This document shows, piece by piece, positions 30,581 through 38,674 of a stretch of DNA of 64,000 nucleotides (position 1 is its first letter; each line of letters begins with the position of its first letter). The notes beneath the pieces are model-generated. The model did not search any database. It had not been told where the DNA came from and saw nothing but the letters and a program-made list of their open reading frames with translations. Origin of the DNA: Sinosporangium siamense (GTDB taxonomy: Bacteria; Actinomycetota; Actinomycetes; Streptosporangiales; Streptosporangiaceae); contig NZ_BOOW01000031.1 of the NCBI RefSeq assembly GCF_016863435.1, positions 62,001 through 126,000 on the forward strand, in the 5' to 3' direction. The translations under genes were made by a program, and so were the position numbers.

Positions 30581-32167
30581 TTATATTGCCCGATGTTGAG
30601 CGGTAAAGGGTGAGCTGACCTGGGCCAGATGAGCTGCTGTGACGACCGAGGATCGCACGATGGCGGCCGGGAGGTACAGATCCTTGTCCACCCAGAGTGG
30701 CGGTTCGTTCTCCAGCCAGTCCGCCGCCTCGGTGCGGGCGAGCAGGAACTCCGTCCCCTGGGCCACCGCGACGTCCACCGCTCCTCGCCAGCGGTGGTCG
30801 GTGACCGGACGGGTCATCAGCAGCGTGTGCAGGGCGTAGGCGGTCTCCTCGGCTGTGCCGTACCACCTGCCCCACGAACCGTCGGGGCGCTGCGTGTCGA
30901 GGGTCCACCGCACAGCCGCCCCCACGGCGGCGCGTACGGCGGGAGCCTCGATGCCGTAGTGATCGAGGGCGAGCGCGCACGAGGCCGTCGCGTAATAGGG
31001 AGAGGTATGCCAGCGGTCGGTCCAGCTGCCGTCGGGCTCCTGCCGTTCCAGCAGCCACCACGACAACTTCCGCCGGGTCATGTGGTGATCGGATCTGGAT
31101 TGGCGGCGGGCGTGGGCGCCGAATACGTCGAGCACGTGGGCGTTGACCGACACCGATTCCCCCTCCTCACCAGGCCAGGTGCAAAAGTGGGTGGGAAGCT
31201 CATAGCGCCGCAGCACTTCGGGGTCGACCTGGGCGTTCAGCAGCTCGAGAGTGTAGAGCGCGACCGCGGTCGTGTCGGCGTCCATCGGTAGCCCGCTGCT
31301 CGTGCACGCCCCCAGGGGCTTCAGCGCGGCGCTCATCTCCGTCACCATCGACGCCGGGGCCGCGTAGGTGAGCCCCGCCCGCGACAGGCCGCTGAGCACC
31401 CACGATCTTTCGAATGTGGTGATCGGATAGGTGCACGGTGCGAGCCAGGAGTGATCGGCGGCGGTGCTCTCCAGATAACGCAGCGGCGACTCGGGTACGG
31501 CGACGCCGTCCTTGCCGAGCCATGCCGCCGTGGCCGCGGGCGACGCTCCGACGCTGCCCGTCGCCGCAGGGCGGACCGCCGGCGCCCGGCGCGCACTGGG
31601 GCCTGCGACCTCCAACAGGTGCACGAATTTATCCGGCAAATCCGCACCTGAGGAGACTCGTGCGCGCACTGCGTCGAGTGTCTCCGGAGCCACCCCGGCG
31701 GGCAGGGGCAGCCTCGCCTCACCCTTCCATTGGTCCAGGCCGGGCACCTCGCGCTCGCCGAGCGCGGCCAGATGCTCGTTCACCTGGGTGACCAGGGACA
31801 GGAGGATCAATTCCACACCCGGGGTGTCGGGCAGGGGGGAGGGACGGTCGCTCAGGCGGCGGAAGGCCGACGCCAGCCCCCTGTCGATCGCGGGTGTCAG
31901 GGAGTCGCTGTCCTCGGAGCGGTCCAGGAGGCCGAGCAGCGCCTCCGTGGCGCTCAGCGTGGGCACCAGACTGTAGTCCCCGGGGCCGCCCCAGCCCCCG
32001 TCGGCCCGCTGGCTGTCGATCACATGGCGGACGCGCCGGTCGTGGCCGGTCAGCCAGGGAGCAAAGGAGACCAGGCGGGCCGTCTCATAGATCGAGGCGG
32101 AGACCTCCCCGTGGGGACGGTCGGCCAGTCTCGTGATCACATCGCTTAGCACACCGGTTCTTCTCAC
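30581..32167 (-). CDS. Class II diterpene cyclase (copalyl diphosphate synthase type)
   Basis: 528 residues of the terpene cyclase class II family with the alpha-helical betagamma barrel. The protonating motif is MDADTTAVALY near residue 294: a DxDT variant of the usual DxDD. QW-like repeats are ADGGWGGPGDYS, DGSWTDRWHTSPYY and DGSWGRWYGTAEETAYAL. It should protonate geranylgeranyl diphosphate to a labdane-type copalyl diphosphate. The GTG start overlaps the class I synthase by 4 bases; third gene of the operon. No prenyl synthase is nearby, so GGPP must come from elsewhere. The stereochemistry cannot be assigned. Confidence 0.92.
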   Translation of the reverse strand: MRRTGVLSDVITRLADRPHGEVSASIYETARLVSFAPWLTGHDRRVRHVIDSQRADGGWGGPGDYSLVPTLSATEALLGLLDRSEDSDSLTPAIDRGLASAFRRLSDRPSPLPDTPGVELILLSLVTQVNEHLAALGEREVPGLDQWKGEARLPLPAGVAPETLDAVRARVSSGADLPDKFVHLLEVAGPSARRAPAVRPAATGSVGASPAATAAWLGKDGVAVPESPLRYLESTAADHSWLAPCTYPITTFERSWVLSGLSRAGLTYAAPASMVTEMSAALKPLGACTSSGLPMDADTTAVALYTLELLNAQVDPEVLRRYELPTHFCTWPGEEGESVSVNAHVLDVFGAHARRQSRSDHHMTRRKLSWWLLERQEPDGSWTDRWHTSPYYATASCALALDHYGIEAPAVRAAVGAAVRWTLDTQRPDGSWGRWYGTAEETAYALHTLLMTRPVTDHRWRGAVDVAVAQGTEFLLARTEAADWLENEPPLWVDKDLYLPAAIVRSSVVTAAHLAQVSSPFTAQHRAI

Positions 32168-33069
32168 GCTTCACCCCAGAAGTCGGTGAGCTGGTAGAAG
32201 CCAGTGGTGAATTCCATTTGCCGCTCCATGTAGTTCGCCAGGTCGGCGTGATCCTGGTGGTCCTGCCGCAGTGCGGTCAGCAGGTCTCGGGCCTTGTCCG
32301 TGTGGTGTGCGAGCGCCTCGGCCACCGCGTCGCGGGAGTCGAGGATCAGCGCGTTGAGGTCTCCGGAGAGCAGTTCACGCTCGTAGGTTCCCTGATCGTT
32401 CAATAGACGTATGACCCGCTGGACTGCGTCGGCCACGTCGAGCACGCGAGGGATGAGAGCGGGGGAGGGTGGCTCGCAGGTGGAGATCCAATGGGAGACG
32501 ATGACGAAGACAAAGCCGGTGTTGTCGGAGTTGTCAAGGTATTGGGGGAGGGAGGGTAAGCGTGTCCCGTTCTGTGTGTGGGCCGTCCTCCACATCCACT
32601 CGGTGCGCATAGCCGAGAGCAGCCTGTCGAGTGCTTCGAGCCACGCCTCGCGCAGCAACTCAAAAGTGGGGGAGGCGGCCAGTTCATCGCGAATATCGGC
32701 GAGAAATCGGGTCAGGTCGTCGCCCTCGGCCCGGGTGGAACCGGCCGCAGTTCTGCGGCATCGCCGTACGATATCGGTGACCTCGTCGGCCGAGCCGGCT
32801 TGCTGATCGACCCGCCAGTCAAGGCCGAAAAGCCAGACCGCCGCCTTGTTCGCCAGCATAAGCCGGTCGGCGTCGAGTGAGGGGGCGCCCAACGCCGATG
32901 CGCTCGCGAGAATGCTGTGCAGTCCGGCGTCGAACATGGGCTGCTCGTAAAGCCGTGGATATGCGGCCGTGCATTTAAGCAGGGAACGCTGGATCTTTCC
33001 CGCTGTCGCGCAGATCCTTCCTACTTCCCTTGACGACCACTCGGTCTGCAGGCCGGTGGTATTGCGCAT
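32164..33069 (-). CDS. Class I terpene synthase
   Basis: 301 residues, the all-alpha fold of bacterial class I synthases. Metal-binding motifs: a divergent Asp-rich DWRVD at 84-88 (DxxxD rather than DDxxD) and an NSE-type triad NDQGTYERE with N224, T228 and E232. The two Trp-rich helices around EWMWRTAH are typical of the cavity. It starts immediately after the P450 stop (TGA-ATG) and overlaps the class II cyclase. It probably ionises the copalyl diphosphate made by its neighbour to a polycyclic diterpene such as a kaurane, atisane or pimarane type. The divergent motifs prevent prediction of product. Confidence 0.88.
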   Translation of the reverse strand: MRNTTGLQTEWSSREVGRICATAGKIQRSLLKCTAAYPRLYEQPMFDAGLHSILASASALGAPSLDADRLMLANKAAVWLFGLDWRVDQQAGSADEVTDIVRRCRRTAAGSTRAEGDDLTRFLADIRDELAASPTFELLREAWLEALDRLLSAMRTEWMWRTAHTQNGTRLPSLPQYLDNSDNTGFVFVIVSHWISTCEPPSPALIPRVLDVADAVQRVIRLLNDQGTYERELLSGDLNALILDSRDAVAEALAHHTDKARDLLTALRQDHQDHADLANYMERQMEFTTGFYQLTDFWGEA

Positions 33070-34437
33070 TCAATCCTGTCCTTTCGATAGGTCTCGAAGG
33101 GGAAGCAGGGTGAGGGCGACGGATTCGCGCATGCGCAGGGAGGCTCCGGCCGCGGGAGTGAAGGTCGCGCCTTCCCGGATTTCAGTGCGATATTTGCTCA
33201 GAATGGTCGCCACGGTGAGCATGCCCGAGGTCATGAAGAGGTGTTCGCCTATGCAGCTGCGCGGACCGACGCCGAAGGGCACGTAGGAGTAGGGGGCGCG
33301 GCGCGGTGCGTTCTCGGCGAAGCGTCCTGGGTCGAAGGCGAGCGGGTCATCCCAGAACTCCTCAAGCCGGTGCGTGAGATAGGGGCTGAGCAGCATGGTG
33401 GCCCCGCCCTGGATGCGCACCCCGTCGATCGTGTCGTCCATGACCGCCGTGCGGGAGAACAGCCAGCCCGACGGATAGAGCCGCAGCACCTCACGCAGGA
33501 ACGCCCGAAGGTAGGTCAGCTGCTCCACGTGCTCCGGGGTGACCGGCCCGTCGCCCACCACTCGGGCGATCTCGTCGTACACCCGGCCGGCCAAGGCGGG
33601 GTGTTTGTGCAGCATGGGCCACACCCAGGTGAGATTGCGGGCGGAGGTCTCCAGGGAGGCGCCGATCAGGTTGATGAGGTTGTCGCGGACCTTCCGCCTG
33701 GCCGCCTCGTCGGTCTTGACCTCCGGTTCGTGGCAGAGCGCCGAGATCACGTCGTCGCCCGGCCGGTGCTCGGTCTCCGCCATGAGCGGATAGATGATGT
33801 CGTCGATCTCACGTGTGGCACGCTGGAAGGCACGATCGCCGGGCAGAGGGATCGTGTTCGGCATGAAGGGGAACAGAAGGCGCGCCTTGATCGATTCGGT
33901 GGCGGCGTCGCATGACTGGGCGAGCCGGGCGGCGGCGTCGAAGGAGATGCGGTCCCCGCACAGGATCCGCATGAAGACCACGCGTAAGATTCTGGAGATC
34001 TCGGTCAGGGTGTCGACCGGTTTTCCGGCTTGGGCGTCGTCGTGCAGGAGGTCGACCTGTTCGGCGATCGTCCGCGTCACCGAGCCGCCGATGGCGGTGA
34101 CATGTCTGCGAGTGAAGAAGGGCTGCATCGATTTGCGGCTGCGCTCCCATGAGGCGCCGTTGGCGGTGACGATGCCGTCGCCCAGCAGCCGGCGCATCGG
34201 CTGCCATAGCAGGCCCTCGCGGACATAGTTTGGACTATTGCCCTTAAGAATGTGCTTGAGGTGCTCGGGGTGGGTCGCCAAATAGGCCGTGAACGGCCCC
34301 AGCTTAAGCTCGACAATCCTGCCGCGCGCCTCTGCGCTAAGCGTTTCCAGCACTTCGATCGGATCGCGGAGGAGTCCGGAGATCAGTCGGCGGCCCGCGC
34401 AGCGCATGGGTTTCACACTGCTCACTGAGATCGACAT
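33070..34437 (-). CDS. Cytochrome P450 of the diterpene operon
   Basis: 455 residues, long for a bacterial P450 and closer to fatty-acid/terpenoid-oxidising clans (inference). Heme loop FGVGPRSCIGEH with Cys395, ExxR in LREVLRLYP and the PERF-like FDPGRFAE. The I-helix reads LIGASLETSARNLTW, with the conserved acid-Thr pair ET. It is the first gene of the operon P450 - class I synthase - class II cyclase, so the likely job is oxidation of the diterpene hydrocarbon to an alcohol or acid. No ferredoxin or reductase gene is adjacent. Confidence 0.92.
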   Translation of the reverse strand: MSISVSSVKPMRCAGRRLISGLLRDPIEVLETLSAEARGRIVELKLGPFTAYLATHPEHLKHILKGNSPNYVREGLLWQPMRRLLGDGIVTANGASWERSRKSMQPFFTRRHVTAIGGSVTRTIAEQVDLLHDDAQAGKPVDTLTEISRILRVVFMRILCGDRISFDAAARLAQSCDAATESIKARLLFPFMPNTIPLPGDRAFQRATREIDDIIYPLMAETEHRPGDDVISALCHEPEVKTDEAARRKVRDNLINLIGASLETSARNLTWVWPMLHKHPALAGRVYDEIARVVGDGPVTPEHVEQLTYLRAFLREVLRLYPSGWLFSRTAVMDDTIDGVRIQGGATMLLSPYLTHRLEEFWDDPLAFDPGRFAENAPRRAPYSYVPFGVGPRSCIGEHLFMTSGMLTVATILSKYRTEIREGATFTPAAGASLRMRESVALTLLPLRDLSKGQD

Positions 34438-35721: not shown

Positions 35722-38193
35722 TCAGCCGATCGGGACAGGGCGGTCGTTCCGGTGATAACGGTCGGAGAGCGCCTGGTTCGCCAGCGGATCTCCCCGCACC
35801 GCCGCCTTGCGCAACACCTCCTCGGCCTCCCGATACCGCCCCTGCTCGCTCAGCAGATCGGCGAGGCCGAGTACGGCGAGGCTGTCGCCGGCCTCGGCCG
35901 CACGGTAAAGCACCGACTCCGTACGGAGAATCGAGATCGGCTTGCCCTCCAGCCTCGCCAGGGCCTGCTGGGCGATGTCGACCCCCGCGTCGGCGGCCCG
36001 GTGCCAGGTCTCGATGGCCTCGTCGATAAAGCCGGCCTGCTCAAGCAGCACCGCCAGCTCCCGCAGCGCCGCCGCGCCCCCGGCCTCCGCCGCCCCCCGC
36101 CACGCCTCGATGGCCTCCTCGACCCGGCCCGCACGCTCCAGCAGGGTCGCGAGCTCCCGCTTGGCCGAGATGTCACCCGCGGCGGCGGCCGACCGCAGAT
36201 GCACACACGCCTCGTCGATCCGCCCGATGGCCGCCAGCCGCCTCGCCAGCGTCTTGAGCGCGCTGAGGTTGCCCGCCGCGGCCGCCTGCCGCCACATGCC
36301 GATCGCCTCCTCGACCCGGCCCGCACGGTCGAGGAGCGCGGCGAGCTCCATGGTGGCGTGGATGCCACCGGCCGCCGCGGCCTGCCGCCACATCTGGATG
36401 GCCTCGTGCACCCTGCCGGTCTTCTCCAGCAGCCGGGTGAGTTCCCGTTTGGCCTCGGTGCCCCGCGTCTGCCGCCAGATGCGGATCGCCTCGGGCACCC
36501 GGTCGGTCTTCTCCAGCAGCCGGGTGAGCTCCCGCTTGGCCTCGGCGTCGCCCGACTGCGCGGCCCGGCGCAGCCACAACTCGGCCTCGCCGGTGTCGCC
36601 GCGGCGTTCGAGCAGCTCCGCCATGACCGACATGGCGTAGGTGTTGCCGTGGGCGGCAGCCGTACGCCACAGTCCGGCGGCCTGGTCGGGGCGGCCGGCG
36701 CGTTCAAGCTGGTCGGTCAGGTTCCACAAGGTGAGGGTTTCGTCGGTCGTGACCGCGACGTCCCGGGGGGTGTCGGGCTCGGCCTTGGTGAGGCGCCTCG
36801 CGCCGAGCCACAACGACCGGGCGATTTCGAGTTCCTGCCCGATTTCAAGCTCATGGCCGGTGTCGGGCTGATGGCCGCTGTCGAGCGGGGGGAGCGGGTC
36901 GCCGGTCTTTCTGGGCGGCGTCAGCACCCGGACGAGTTGCGCGGTGAACTCCCAGGTGGGCAGGGGAGCCTGGCCGCCCAGCACGGTCGCGATGTGGGTG
37001 TGGCTGCACCCCATGTGCTGGGCGATCTCCCGCAGGGGCGGGTTGTTCGCCTTGTCGCGGAGCCGCACGAGATATTGCACGAACTCCGCATATTCCGAGC
37101 TGACCGGGCGGATCAAGGTTCCCCGGAGTTCACGGCGGGCACGACTCAGCCGTCCGTACACCGCCATGGGTGACATGCCGAGCATGTCGGCGGTGTCCTG
37201 CACCGAGAAACCGGCCGCCCGCCGATAGACGATCTCCCTGGTGGTCGCGTCGAGCTCTTGCAGCAGATCGCCGATCGAGAACCGCTCGACCACGTCCTCG
37301 GCGATGTCGGGCAGGGTGAGCACGGCAGCCGCCCGCGGTTCCCCGGCCACGTCCTCCAGCGGGTCGCCTGCGGGGGCGGGCAGGTGGTGGGCCCGCCGCA
37401 CCGCCTGCTGGCACACCCATCGCCGCAGGTCGGGGGTGGTGCTGAGCACGTCGTGCCACCGTTGGTGCGCGGTCAGCAGGGTCTCCTGCGCGATGTCCTC
37501 GGCGTCGGGCGAGCCGACCCCGGCGGCCGCGAGCGCCGACAGCGCCCACCGCATGCCGAGCGGATAGAAGTCGGAGAACTCCAAGGGGATGCGTTCGCCG
37601 TATCTGATGCTCTGTTCGGCGAGGTTGCGGCGCATCGTCCACTCGGACATGTCGCCGCCGCAGGCCCAGACAACGGTTTCCAGCAGACGTTCGGAGGGGA
37701 GCGCGCGTCCGGAGAACGCCTCGGACAACGCCGCCCGGCTGTAGAACGTGCGCTCGGCGAGTTGCCGTAAGGACGGACTGCCGGCGCCGGCGCGCAGGTG
37801 CCGCAGGTCGAGGACGAACTCCGCGACGATCTGGTCGGCGCTCACCGGCGCGCCCGGCTCACGGGTGTCGCTCGGCGGCGGTGCGGGGGGCGGTGCGGGC
37901 GGGGGATCGGTGCGCTTGCGCAGCGCGGTCGTGACCTGTTCCCGTCCTTGGTGCGTCAGCCGGTAGTAACGCCGCCGGGGGCCTTTGCCGCGGCCTGAGG
38001 ATTCCCAGCTCGCTTCGAGCCAGCCGACTTTTTCCAGTCGCGTGAGCAGGGGATAAACAGTGCCGGTGGGACGTTGAGTGAGTGTGGCGACCTGAAGTCC
38101 GTAGACGGGTTGGCCGTCGGCGGAGGCAAAGACATCGAGCACGTCGAGGGTCGCATTTGTAAGACGAACAGCGCTTGGCATCGTCGAAACCAT
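35722..38193 (-). CDS. PadR - HTH - ECF sigma-like - HTH - TPR/Sel1 fusion regulator
   Basis: 823 residues with a rare domain order. 8-95: PadR winged helix (LTNATLDVLDVF, GTVYPLLTRLEKVGWLEASWE, RRRYYRLTHQG). 98-108: Pro linker. 122-182: Xre-like HTH (LRQLAERTFYSRAALSEAFSG). 210-275: sigma region 2-like (DAEDIAQETLLTAHQRW). 305-360: sigma region 4-like (LDATTREIVYRRAAGFSVQD, SPMAVYGRLSRARREL). 365-425: second Xre-like HTH (LREIAQHMGCSHTHIATVLGG). 480-815: about nine Sel1/TPR units (for example EAKRELTRLLEKTGRVHEAI). No signal peptide or membrane helix. ATG 38193 or 38181 are possible starts. No partner gene or anti-sigma factor is adjacent. Frame and composition are uniform throughout, so this is one gene rather than a read-through artefact. 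Confidence 0.9.
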   Translation of the reverse strand: MVSTMPSAVRLTNATLDVLDVFASADGQPVYGLQVATLTQRPTGTVYPLLTRLEKVGWLEASWESSGRGKGPRRRYYRLTHQGREQVTTALRKRTDPPPAPPPAPPPSDTREPGAPVSADQIVAEFVLDLRHLRAGAGSPSLRQLAERTFYSRAALSEAFSGRALPSERLLETVVWACGGDMSEWTMRRNLAEQSIRYGERIPLEFSDFYPLGMRWALSALAAAGVGSPDAEDIAQETLLTAHQRWHDVLSTTPDLRRWVCQQAVRRAHHLPAPAGDPLEDVAGEPRAAAVLTLPDIAEDVVERFSIGDLLQELDATTREIVYRRAAGFSVQDTADMLGMSPMAVYGRLSRARRELRGTLIRPVSSEYAEFVQYLVRLRDKANNPPLREIAQHMGCSHTHIATVLGGQAPLPTWEFTAQLVRVLTPPRKTGDPLPPLDSGHQPDTGHELEIGQELEIARSLWLGARRLTKAEPDTPRDVAVTTDETLTLWNLTDQLERAGRPDQAAGLWRTAAAHGNTYAMSVMAELLERRGDTGEAELWLRRAAQSGDAEAKRELTRLLEKTDRVPEAIRIWRQTRGTEAKRELTRLLEKTGRVHEAIQMWRQAAAAGGIHATMELAALLDRAGRVEEAIGMWRQAAAAGNLSALKTLARRLAAIGRIDEACVHLRSAAAAGDISAKRELATLLERAGRVEEAIEAWRGAAEAGGAAALRELAVLLEQAGFIDEAIETWHRAADAGVDIAQQALARLEGKPISILRTESVLYRAAEAGDSLAVLGLADLLSEQGRYREAEEVLRKAAVRGDPLANQALSDRYHRNDRPVPIG

Positions 38194-38211
38194 CTACCTA
38201 TATAGAGATAG
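38194..38211. promoter_or_regulatory. PadR-type operator candidate at the start of the fusion regulator
   Basis: CTACCTATATAGAGATAG has 7 of 9 paired positions in dyad symmetry, is AT-rich in a 70% GC region and directly abuts the ATG at 38193. PadR proteins commonly bind AT-rich dyads in their own promoters, so autoregulation is likely. TATATA may also serve as a -10 element, which would give a nearly leaderless transcript. Confidence 0.5.
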
Positions 38212-38336
38212 AGCCAGGTGTTCAGTCCTCACGATGTAATAGCGCGAGGAGCTGAATGAAGGTGAGGGCCCCGAGCGCGCGATTACTGCTCACGGGACCC
38301 CCGCCTCTTGCGGTGCCGTTGGCGGGCCCGAACTCT

Positions 38337-38525
38337 CTACAGTTCGGGCCAGCCTGCACGGATGGCCAGATAGAGCTGGATCAACGCGGTGGTTCCCGTG
38401 CTGATCCGCACCAGCCATCCGTGCCAGCGGCGATAGCGACGTTCCTCTCCGGGTCTTGAGGAGGAGCACTCATCGCACTCCTCCTCTCCGCCCTTCGACT
38501 CATCGCCGCCGCGCGGATTCTCCAT
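38337..38525 (-). CDS. Small protein with C-terminal hydrophobic helix
   Basis: 62 residues. The N-terminal half is acidic and Cys-containing (GEEECDECSSSRPGEE) and the C-terminal half is WHGWLVRISTGTTALIQLYLAIRAG, an amphipathic to hydrophobic helix. GAAGGAGAGG lies 9 bases before the ATG, a good ribosome site. No known family. The composition and ribosome site support a real gene that would associate with the membrane; the intergenic positions to both sides (38212-38336, 38526-38752) show no gene. Confidence 0.5.
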   Translation of the reverse strand: MENPRGGDESKGGEEECDECSSSRPGEERRYRRWHGWLVRISTGTTALIQLYLAIRAGWPEL

Positions 38526-38674
38526 GACGTAGCCCTCTCCTTCGGTGCCAGGGGGAACCAGACAGGTCCCGCGGGAACCGGCCGGGTGCGTTCCGCGGGC
38601 ACCTCAAGAGAGGGTTAAGGCATAGCGTAGCGGGATATGTCGCCATTGAGGGGCAAGTGAAGGCGTAACCGTTT

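Follow-up and report, generated by a model that had tools for sequence, protein, structure and literature searches.

How ECF sigma factors are controlled when they have no anti-sigma factor is poorly understood, and control through DNA binding is usually exerted by a separate protein. In ECF42, a TPR extension of about 200 residues is essential for activity, and the genes of ECF265 sigma factors have PadR repressor genes in their vicinity (PMC8999054). For ECF36, N-terminal transmembrane extensions appear in the literature. In the open-access literature searched, we found no description of a PadR domain fused to a sigma factor.

We analyzed a 64,000-nucleotide stretch of DNA from Sinosporangium siamense (the window) that encodes such a protein. 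Its domains are, in order, a PadR winged helix, an HTH_31 domain, ECF sigma regions 2 and 4, a second HTH_31 domain, and about ten TPR-like helix pairs. Each of these parts is familiar; their combination, and the operator-linked module that they form, is not.

Architecture and occurrence of the fusion

The reading frame covers window positions 35722-38193 on the minus strand. Inspection of the frame and Pfam searches confirmed that it runs uninterrupted for 823 codons and carries every block that the initial annotation had assigned to it. The start proposed at 38193 had to be revised. All nine homologues align from codon 5, several of them have the earlier ATG in another frame or lack it, and the ATG of codon 5 at 38179-38181 is for that reason very probably the true start. 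The coding sequence and its domains, with residues numbered in the 823-amino acid frame, are as follows.

35722..38181, minus strand: coding sequence of the fusion regulator, 819 amino acids plus stop
37906..38181, minus strand: PadR winged helix, residues 5-96 (Pfam PF03551, 47.9 bits; PadR chains in the PDB)
37600..37845, minus strand: first HTH_31 domain (Xre-like), residues 117-198 (Pfam; resemblance to HTH domains of multidomain proteins)
37384..37587, minus strand: divergent ECF sigma region 2, residues 203-270 (profile, model and fold searches; sigma2.2 motif)
37108..37287, minus strand: ECF sigma region 4, residues 303-362 (Pfam PF08281, 40.5 bits; superposition on SigD)
36922..37092, minus strand: second HTH_31 domain, residues 368-424 (Pfam)
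35746..36738, minus strand: TPR-like solenoid of about ten helix pairs, residues 486-816 (Pfam TPR models; AlphaFold2 secondary structure)

The PadR domain exceeds the Pfam gathering score of 27, was matched in all seven members scanned, and finds PadR chains in the PDB with a best E value of 1.1e-8. HTH_31 was matched by Pfam over two stretches (55.5 bits, cut-off 27), the first of which is 40-56% identical to HTH domains at the N-termini of large multidomain proteins from actinobacteria. Several Pfam TPR models match the C-terminal part, for which the secondary structure predicted by AlphaFold2 has a period of about 32 residues and a pLDDT mostly between 75 and 90. The presence of TPR-like repeats was therefore correctly recognized at the outset, and their count was adjusted from about nine units to about ten helix pairs.

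Profile and protein searches, for which the family-wide profile ran from the first to the second HTH_31 domain, detected the fusion in the same domain order in nine of 343 Streptosporangiaceae genomes, at about 40-72% identity to the window protein. The nine members are the window genome (G000), Sinosporangium album (L033, G001), Acrocarpospora macrocephala (L034/G299), G079, G331, G295, G204, G681 and G678. The seven best were read at full length and aligned across all six domains, and G681 and G678 share the domain order. This distribution is patchy and extends over five genera. In a class-wide sample of 395 genomes, queried with the part from sigma2 through sigma4 to the second HTH_31 domain, no further full-length member was found, and the matches were ordinary ECF sigma factors of about 200 amino acids. 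No relative was detected among viral contigs, and among the plasmid matches listed the HTH_31 part alone was matched, with at most 49% identity over 74-88 residues. PADLOC returned no match for the regulator, so a role in defence finds no support.

Large apparent multi-domain fusions are often annotation or assembly errors, and adjacent genes might here have been joined by chance juxtaposition, a frameshift or a faulty assembly. We found no evidence for any of these, and we regard such a joining as extremely improbable given that nine independently sequenced genomes keep the frame open in the same order and that purifying selection acts over most of its length. The homologues thus refute the assembly-error reading and uphold the initial description of one continuous frame. 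Because the domain order recurs in nine genomes, it is more than chance. Sequence comparison supports a PadR domain fused to an ECF-like sigma core and conserved across nine species.

The sigma-like middle region

A profile of the middle region built from seven sequences gave 13 matches in the PDB at E values up to 1e-3, all of them ECF sigma factors. Most of these matches span sigma2 and sigma4 in one piece, the best being SigH (E 1.4e-10) and SigL (6.6e-9). The two regions are contiguous and lack sigma3 between them, the arrangement that defines ECF sigma factors (group 4 of the sigma70 family). Pfam Sigma70_r4_2 was found in all seven members scanned, with the window protein above its cut-off of 25.7 bits, and Sigma70_r2 reached 16.4 bits, below its cut-off of 24. 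An AlphaFold2 model of the sigma segment, made from a three-row alignment and of low to modest confidence (mean pLDDT 65.5), was used in a Foldseek search, in which the top matches were all ECF sigmas with a probability of 1.00, the first being SigL (6dv9_F, E 5.5e-4). Region 4 alone superposes on region 4 of SigD over 61 residues (VIA-align Z 9.5, rmsd 2.1). Structure prediction, at modest model confidence, hence agrees with the sigma fold that had been proposed for this region.

The nine sigma segments all match ECF models in NCBIfam, and all do so below the curated cut-off. For TIGR02937 (cut-off 42.9 bits) the scores range from 19.6 to 41.7 bits over the nine members, with 34.1 for the window, and the top-scoring sigma model for the window, TIGR02983 of the SigE family, gives 48.9 bits for the 167-amino acid segment against a cut-off of 141.55. 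The PDB profile matches, the Foldseek list and these NCBIfam matches below cut-off indicate that the middle region is a real but divergent ECF-like sigma core. Since its scores lie under the TIGR02937 cut-off, we call it divergent ECF-like and file it under no named ECF group.

Constraint differs between the domains. Positions invariant in the nine members number 30/92 in PadR, 22/82 in the first HTH_31 domain, 8/68 in sigma2, 3/60 in sigma4 and 8/57 in the second HTH_31 domain. PadR is the most constrained (dN/dS 0.08-0.37), and the sigma regions, which are less constrained than PadR or the first HTH_31 domain, evolve faster than PadR. The closest pair has a dN/dS of 0.08 for PadR, 0.31 for sigma2 and 0.51 for sigma4; for the sigma regions the values are 0.3-0.5 in the two closest pairs and 0.9-1.3 in the pair G681/G678, where distances are large. 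Constraint is weakest in sigma4 and the linker.

The sigma2.2 motif D-[ILVA]-x-[QH]-[ED] is kept in all nine members. Within the core-polymerase-binding motif of region 2.2 (D..Q), D229 is invariant and Q232 is present in eight of nine members (M5 numbering). The G-A-V core of the sigma4 HTH is likewise kept. Some members have lost key residues, namely the sigma2.2 Gln in G204 and the sigma2.3 Trp in G204 and G678. Because the 2.2 motif is kept, yet constraint is weaker than in PadR and these residues are missing from some members, we rate sigma activity of the middle region as plausible. A possible, if doubtful, alternative is that the module has lost its sigma function and is retained as extra folds contacting DNA or polymerase, in which case the protein would be a large autorepressor of the PadR/Xre type that senses through its TPRs. 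Scores under the curated cut-offs, the weak constraint on sigma4 and the linker and the losses in G204 and G678 would all be expected of such a protein, but it is harder to reconcile with the retention of both sigma regions in every member, with their dN/dS in the two closest pairs, and with the preserved sigma2.2 motif and G-A-V core.

The upstream dyad and a companion small ORF

Two conserved elements lie upstream of the regulator gene.

38190..38209, minus strand: conserved dyad ATCTCTATATAGGTAGATGG, with its core TCTATATAGGTAGA at 38193-38206, a putative PadR box over a TATATA -10-like element; kept in nine loci
38219..38240, minus strand: conserved block ATTACATCG...TGAACA ahead of the dyad, possibly the -35 side of the promoter; eight of nine loci have TGAACA, the exception being G331

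At all nine loci the upstream block closes with a TCTAYATAGNTAGATGG-like sequence, which lies 8-15 nt ahead of the start codon. Conservation is higher in the DNA directly preceding the start than in the protein: counted by eye, the window and the Acrocarpospora locus agree at 46 of the final 52 nt of this block (38190-38241), whereas the proteins are 45% identical. The conserved upstream 60 nt were also considered as coding sequence, which was rejected because the frames differ between members.

The window genome has no second dyad site, even with up to three mismatches, and with a single copy no regulon is visible. Across 342 genomes, 16 sites were found at no more than one mismatch, nine of which precede the nine fusion genes. 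Four of the other seven were read; three are located directly before stand-alone PadR genes, in G228 (exact), G317 and G275, and one is not. These three genomes lack the fusion, and at their loci (L103, L104 and L106) the dyad reads TCTACCTATGTAGA. The recognition region of the encoded PadR proteins, PSGT[LV]YPILARLEQ.GWVESRWE, resembles RPTGTVYPLLTRLEKVGWLEASWE of the fusion. As the three cases share one genus, they may represent one evolutionary event. Other stand-alone PadR genes include one in G079 (L030) with a near match at three mismatches; no convincing dyad was found before those in L008 or L009.

Because relatives without the fusion have this sequence in front of stand-alone PadR genes, the dyad is probably a PadR box that is read by the PadR domain, and its distribution suggests a PadR box specific to this family within the Streptosporangiaceae. 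The position of the -10-like TATATA inside the dyad points to autoregulation. Autoregulation through an AT-rich dyad at the gene start had been suggested initially, and it is well supported by the occurrence of the dyad in all nine loci, its uniqueness in the genome and its placement before stand-alone PadR genes elsewhere. The sequences thereby make a strong case that the PadR domain would repress its own gene.

Further upstream, a small ORF and three associated elements were identified.

38337..38525, minus strand: small ORF of 62 amino acids, a conserved companion of no known family (dN/dS; nine loci; no Pfam match)
38325..38350, minus strand: terminator-like hairpin spanning the small-ORF stop codon (consensus fold; both-side changes in 6/12 pairs)
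38544..38603, minus strand: inverted repeat in the small-ORF leader, a possible structured 5' leader (inner stem with both-side changes in 6/9 pairs; nine loci)
38624..38631, minus strand: GCTACGCT, a -10-like element (TAnnnT) preceding the small ORF, conserved across loci

At all nine loci the ORF encodes 59-68 amino acids, shares the strand of the regulator and lies 154-203 nt upstream of it; a profile made from it has matches in each of the nine regulator genomes. In a sample of 100 genomes strong matches were confined to the two regulator genomes, the others having E values of 1.6e-4 or weaker and falling mostly inside much longer frames. The small protein matches no Pfam family, and an Rfam search gave nothing above the gathering score. 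A dN/dS of 0.32-0.59, from a short sequence, and a protein that can be aligned in all nine loci argue for a coding rather than a non-coding element. The product has a basic middle and a hydrophobic C-terminal segment, and it ends in WPE(L) in most copies.

Over at least five genomic contexts, the small ORF is the only neighbour that is kept. Because the flanking genes otherwise differ between groups (window/Sinosporangium; Acrocarpospora/G079/G331; G295; G204; G681/G678), the comparison of loci indicates that the conserved unit is two genes, the small ORF plus the regulator. The description of the regulator as a self-contained switch is consequently doubtful, since the small ORF is present with each copy.

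Two neighbouring regions were noted by eye. Beside the Acrocarpospora and G079 copies, a long ORF (L034:4852-7935 and L037:15444-17777) appears to be an ECF sigma running into a cysteine-containing, proline-rich extension, a sigma fusion unrelated to the one described here. Downstream of the regulator in the window (32164-34437, minus strand) are a cytochrome P450 gene and a terpene-synthase-like gene, and relatives of both adjoin the Sinosporangium copy.

In Streptomyces, there are Xre HTH_31 regulators that form pairs with small proteins. By that precedent, the small ORF and the fusion could be an antagonistic pair, in which the TPR/HTH part binds the small protein as its effector or inhibitor and the regulator controls the expression of that protein. 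Strict co-occurrence in the same order at nine loci of differing context, together with purifying selection on the small ORF, would agree with such a pair. We nevertheless judge it unlikely, as the small protein has no Pfam family match and the regulator no PADLOC match, and a promoter-like element and a terminator-like hairpin belong to the small gene itself, in place of an operon link.

Proposed switch and comparison with known systems

The best explanation, to which we assign a probability of roughly one half, is a self-regulating transcription switch that combines PadR docking on its own promoter, a sigma core for polymerase and sensing by TPRs. The PadR domain would bind the dyad over the -10 region of its own promoter and hold the protein level low, a step well supported by sequence. 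With moderate confidence, the sigma2-sigma4 pair, as a divergent ECF sigma, is expected to engage core RNA polymerase, and the operator-bound or operator-released protein might then initiate transcription from its own promoter or from a small number of others. The two HTH_31 domains may supply contacts to DNA or protein. By analogy with ECF42, whose TPR extension is required for activity, the TPR solenoid is proposed, again with moderate confidence, to sense a partner and to set the balance between repression and activation. The 62-amino acid protein is the leading candidate for the TPR partner or for the main target gene, an assignment of weak to moderate strength.

More tentatively, the protein may be a repressor with a built-in sigma factor. 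PadR would park it on its own promoter, a signal read by the TPRs would let the sigma core recruit polymerase there, and the dedicated small protein would be the signal or the output. If this is true, a single protein would turn one promoter off as well as on. The locus places repressor, sigma core and sensor on one chain, with a conserved putative operator that is open to direct assay, and the module, small ORF included, is of a size that allows its transfer into laboratory Streptomyces. It thus becomes testable whether an operator-tethered sigma factor can be switched in place.

RRNPP regulators combine an HTH with TPRs and have a small peptide gene nearby. Their likeness to this locus, which has an Xre-like HTH, TPRs and an adjoining small ORF, is a resemblance only; the small ORF has no export signal by eye, and RRNPP proteins are not known to carry sigma and PadR parts. 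The SigE-family ECF sigma factors of actinobacteria (NCBIfam TIGR02983) provide the top-scoring sigma model, but the window protein falls far under the family cut-off. PadR autorepressors, such as LmrR and the stand-alone PadR proteins of Streptosporangiaceae, share a winged helix with the same signature and a dyad over their own promoter, whereas ordinary PadR proteins are about 100-180 amino acids long and have no sigma, HTH_31 or TPR parts.

As in ECF42, ECF sigma2-sigma4 is followed by a C-terminal TPR solenoid on one chain, and no anti-sigma gene was recognized beside the fusion regulator. ECF42 is not known to have N-terminal PadR or HTH_31 domains. A YCII-related gene nearby is a mark of ECF42; among the loci here, the small ORF is the sole shared neighbour. 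Compared with the roughly 200-residue TPR part of ECF42 (PMC8999054), the solenoid here comprises 330 residues and is accompanied by three extra DNA-binding folds. ECF265 likewise brings a PadR repressor together with an ECF sigma factor (PMC8999054); judged by gene arrangement, the two are separate neighbouring genes there and a single polypeptide here.
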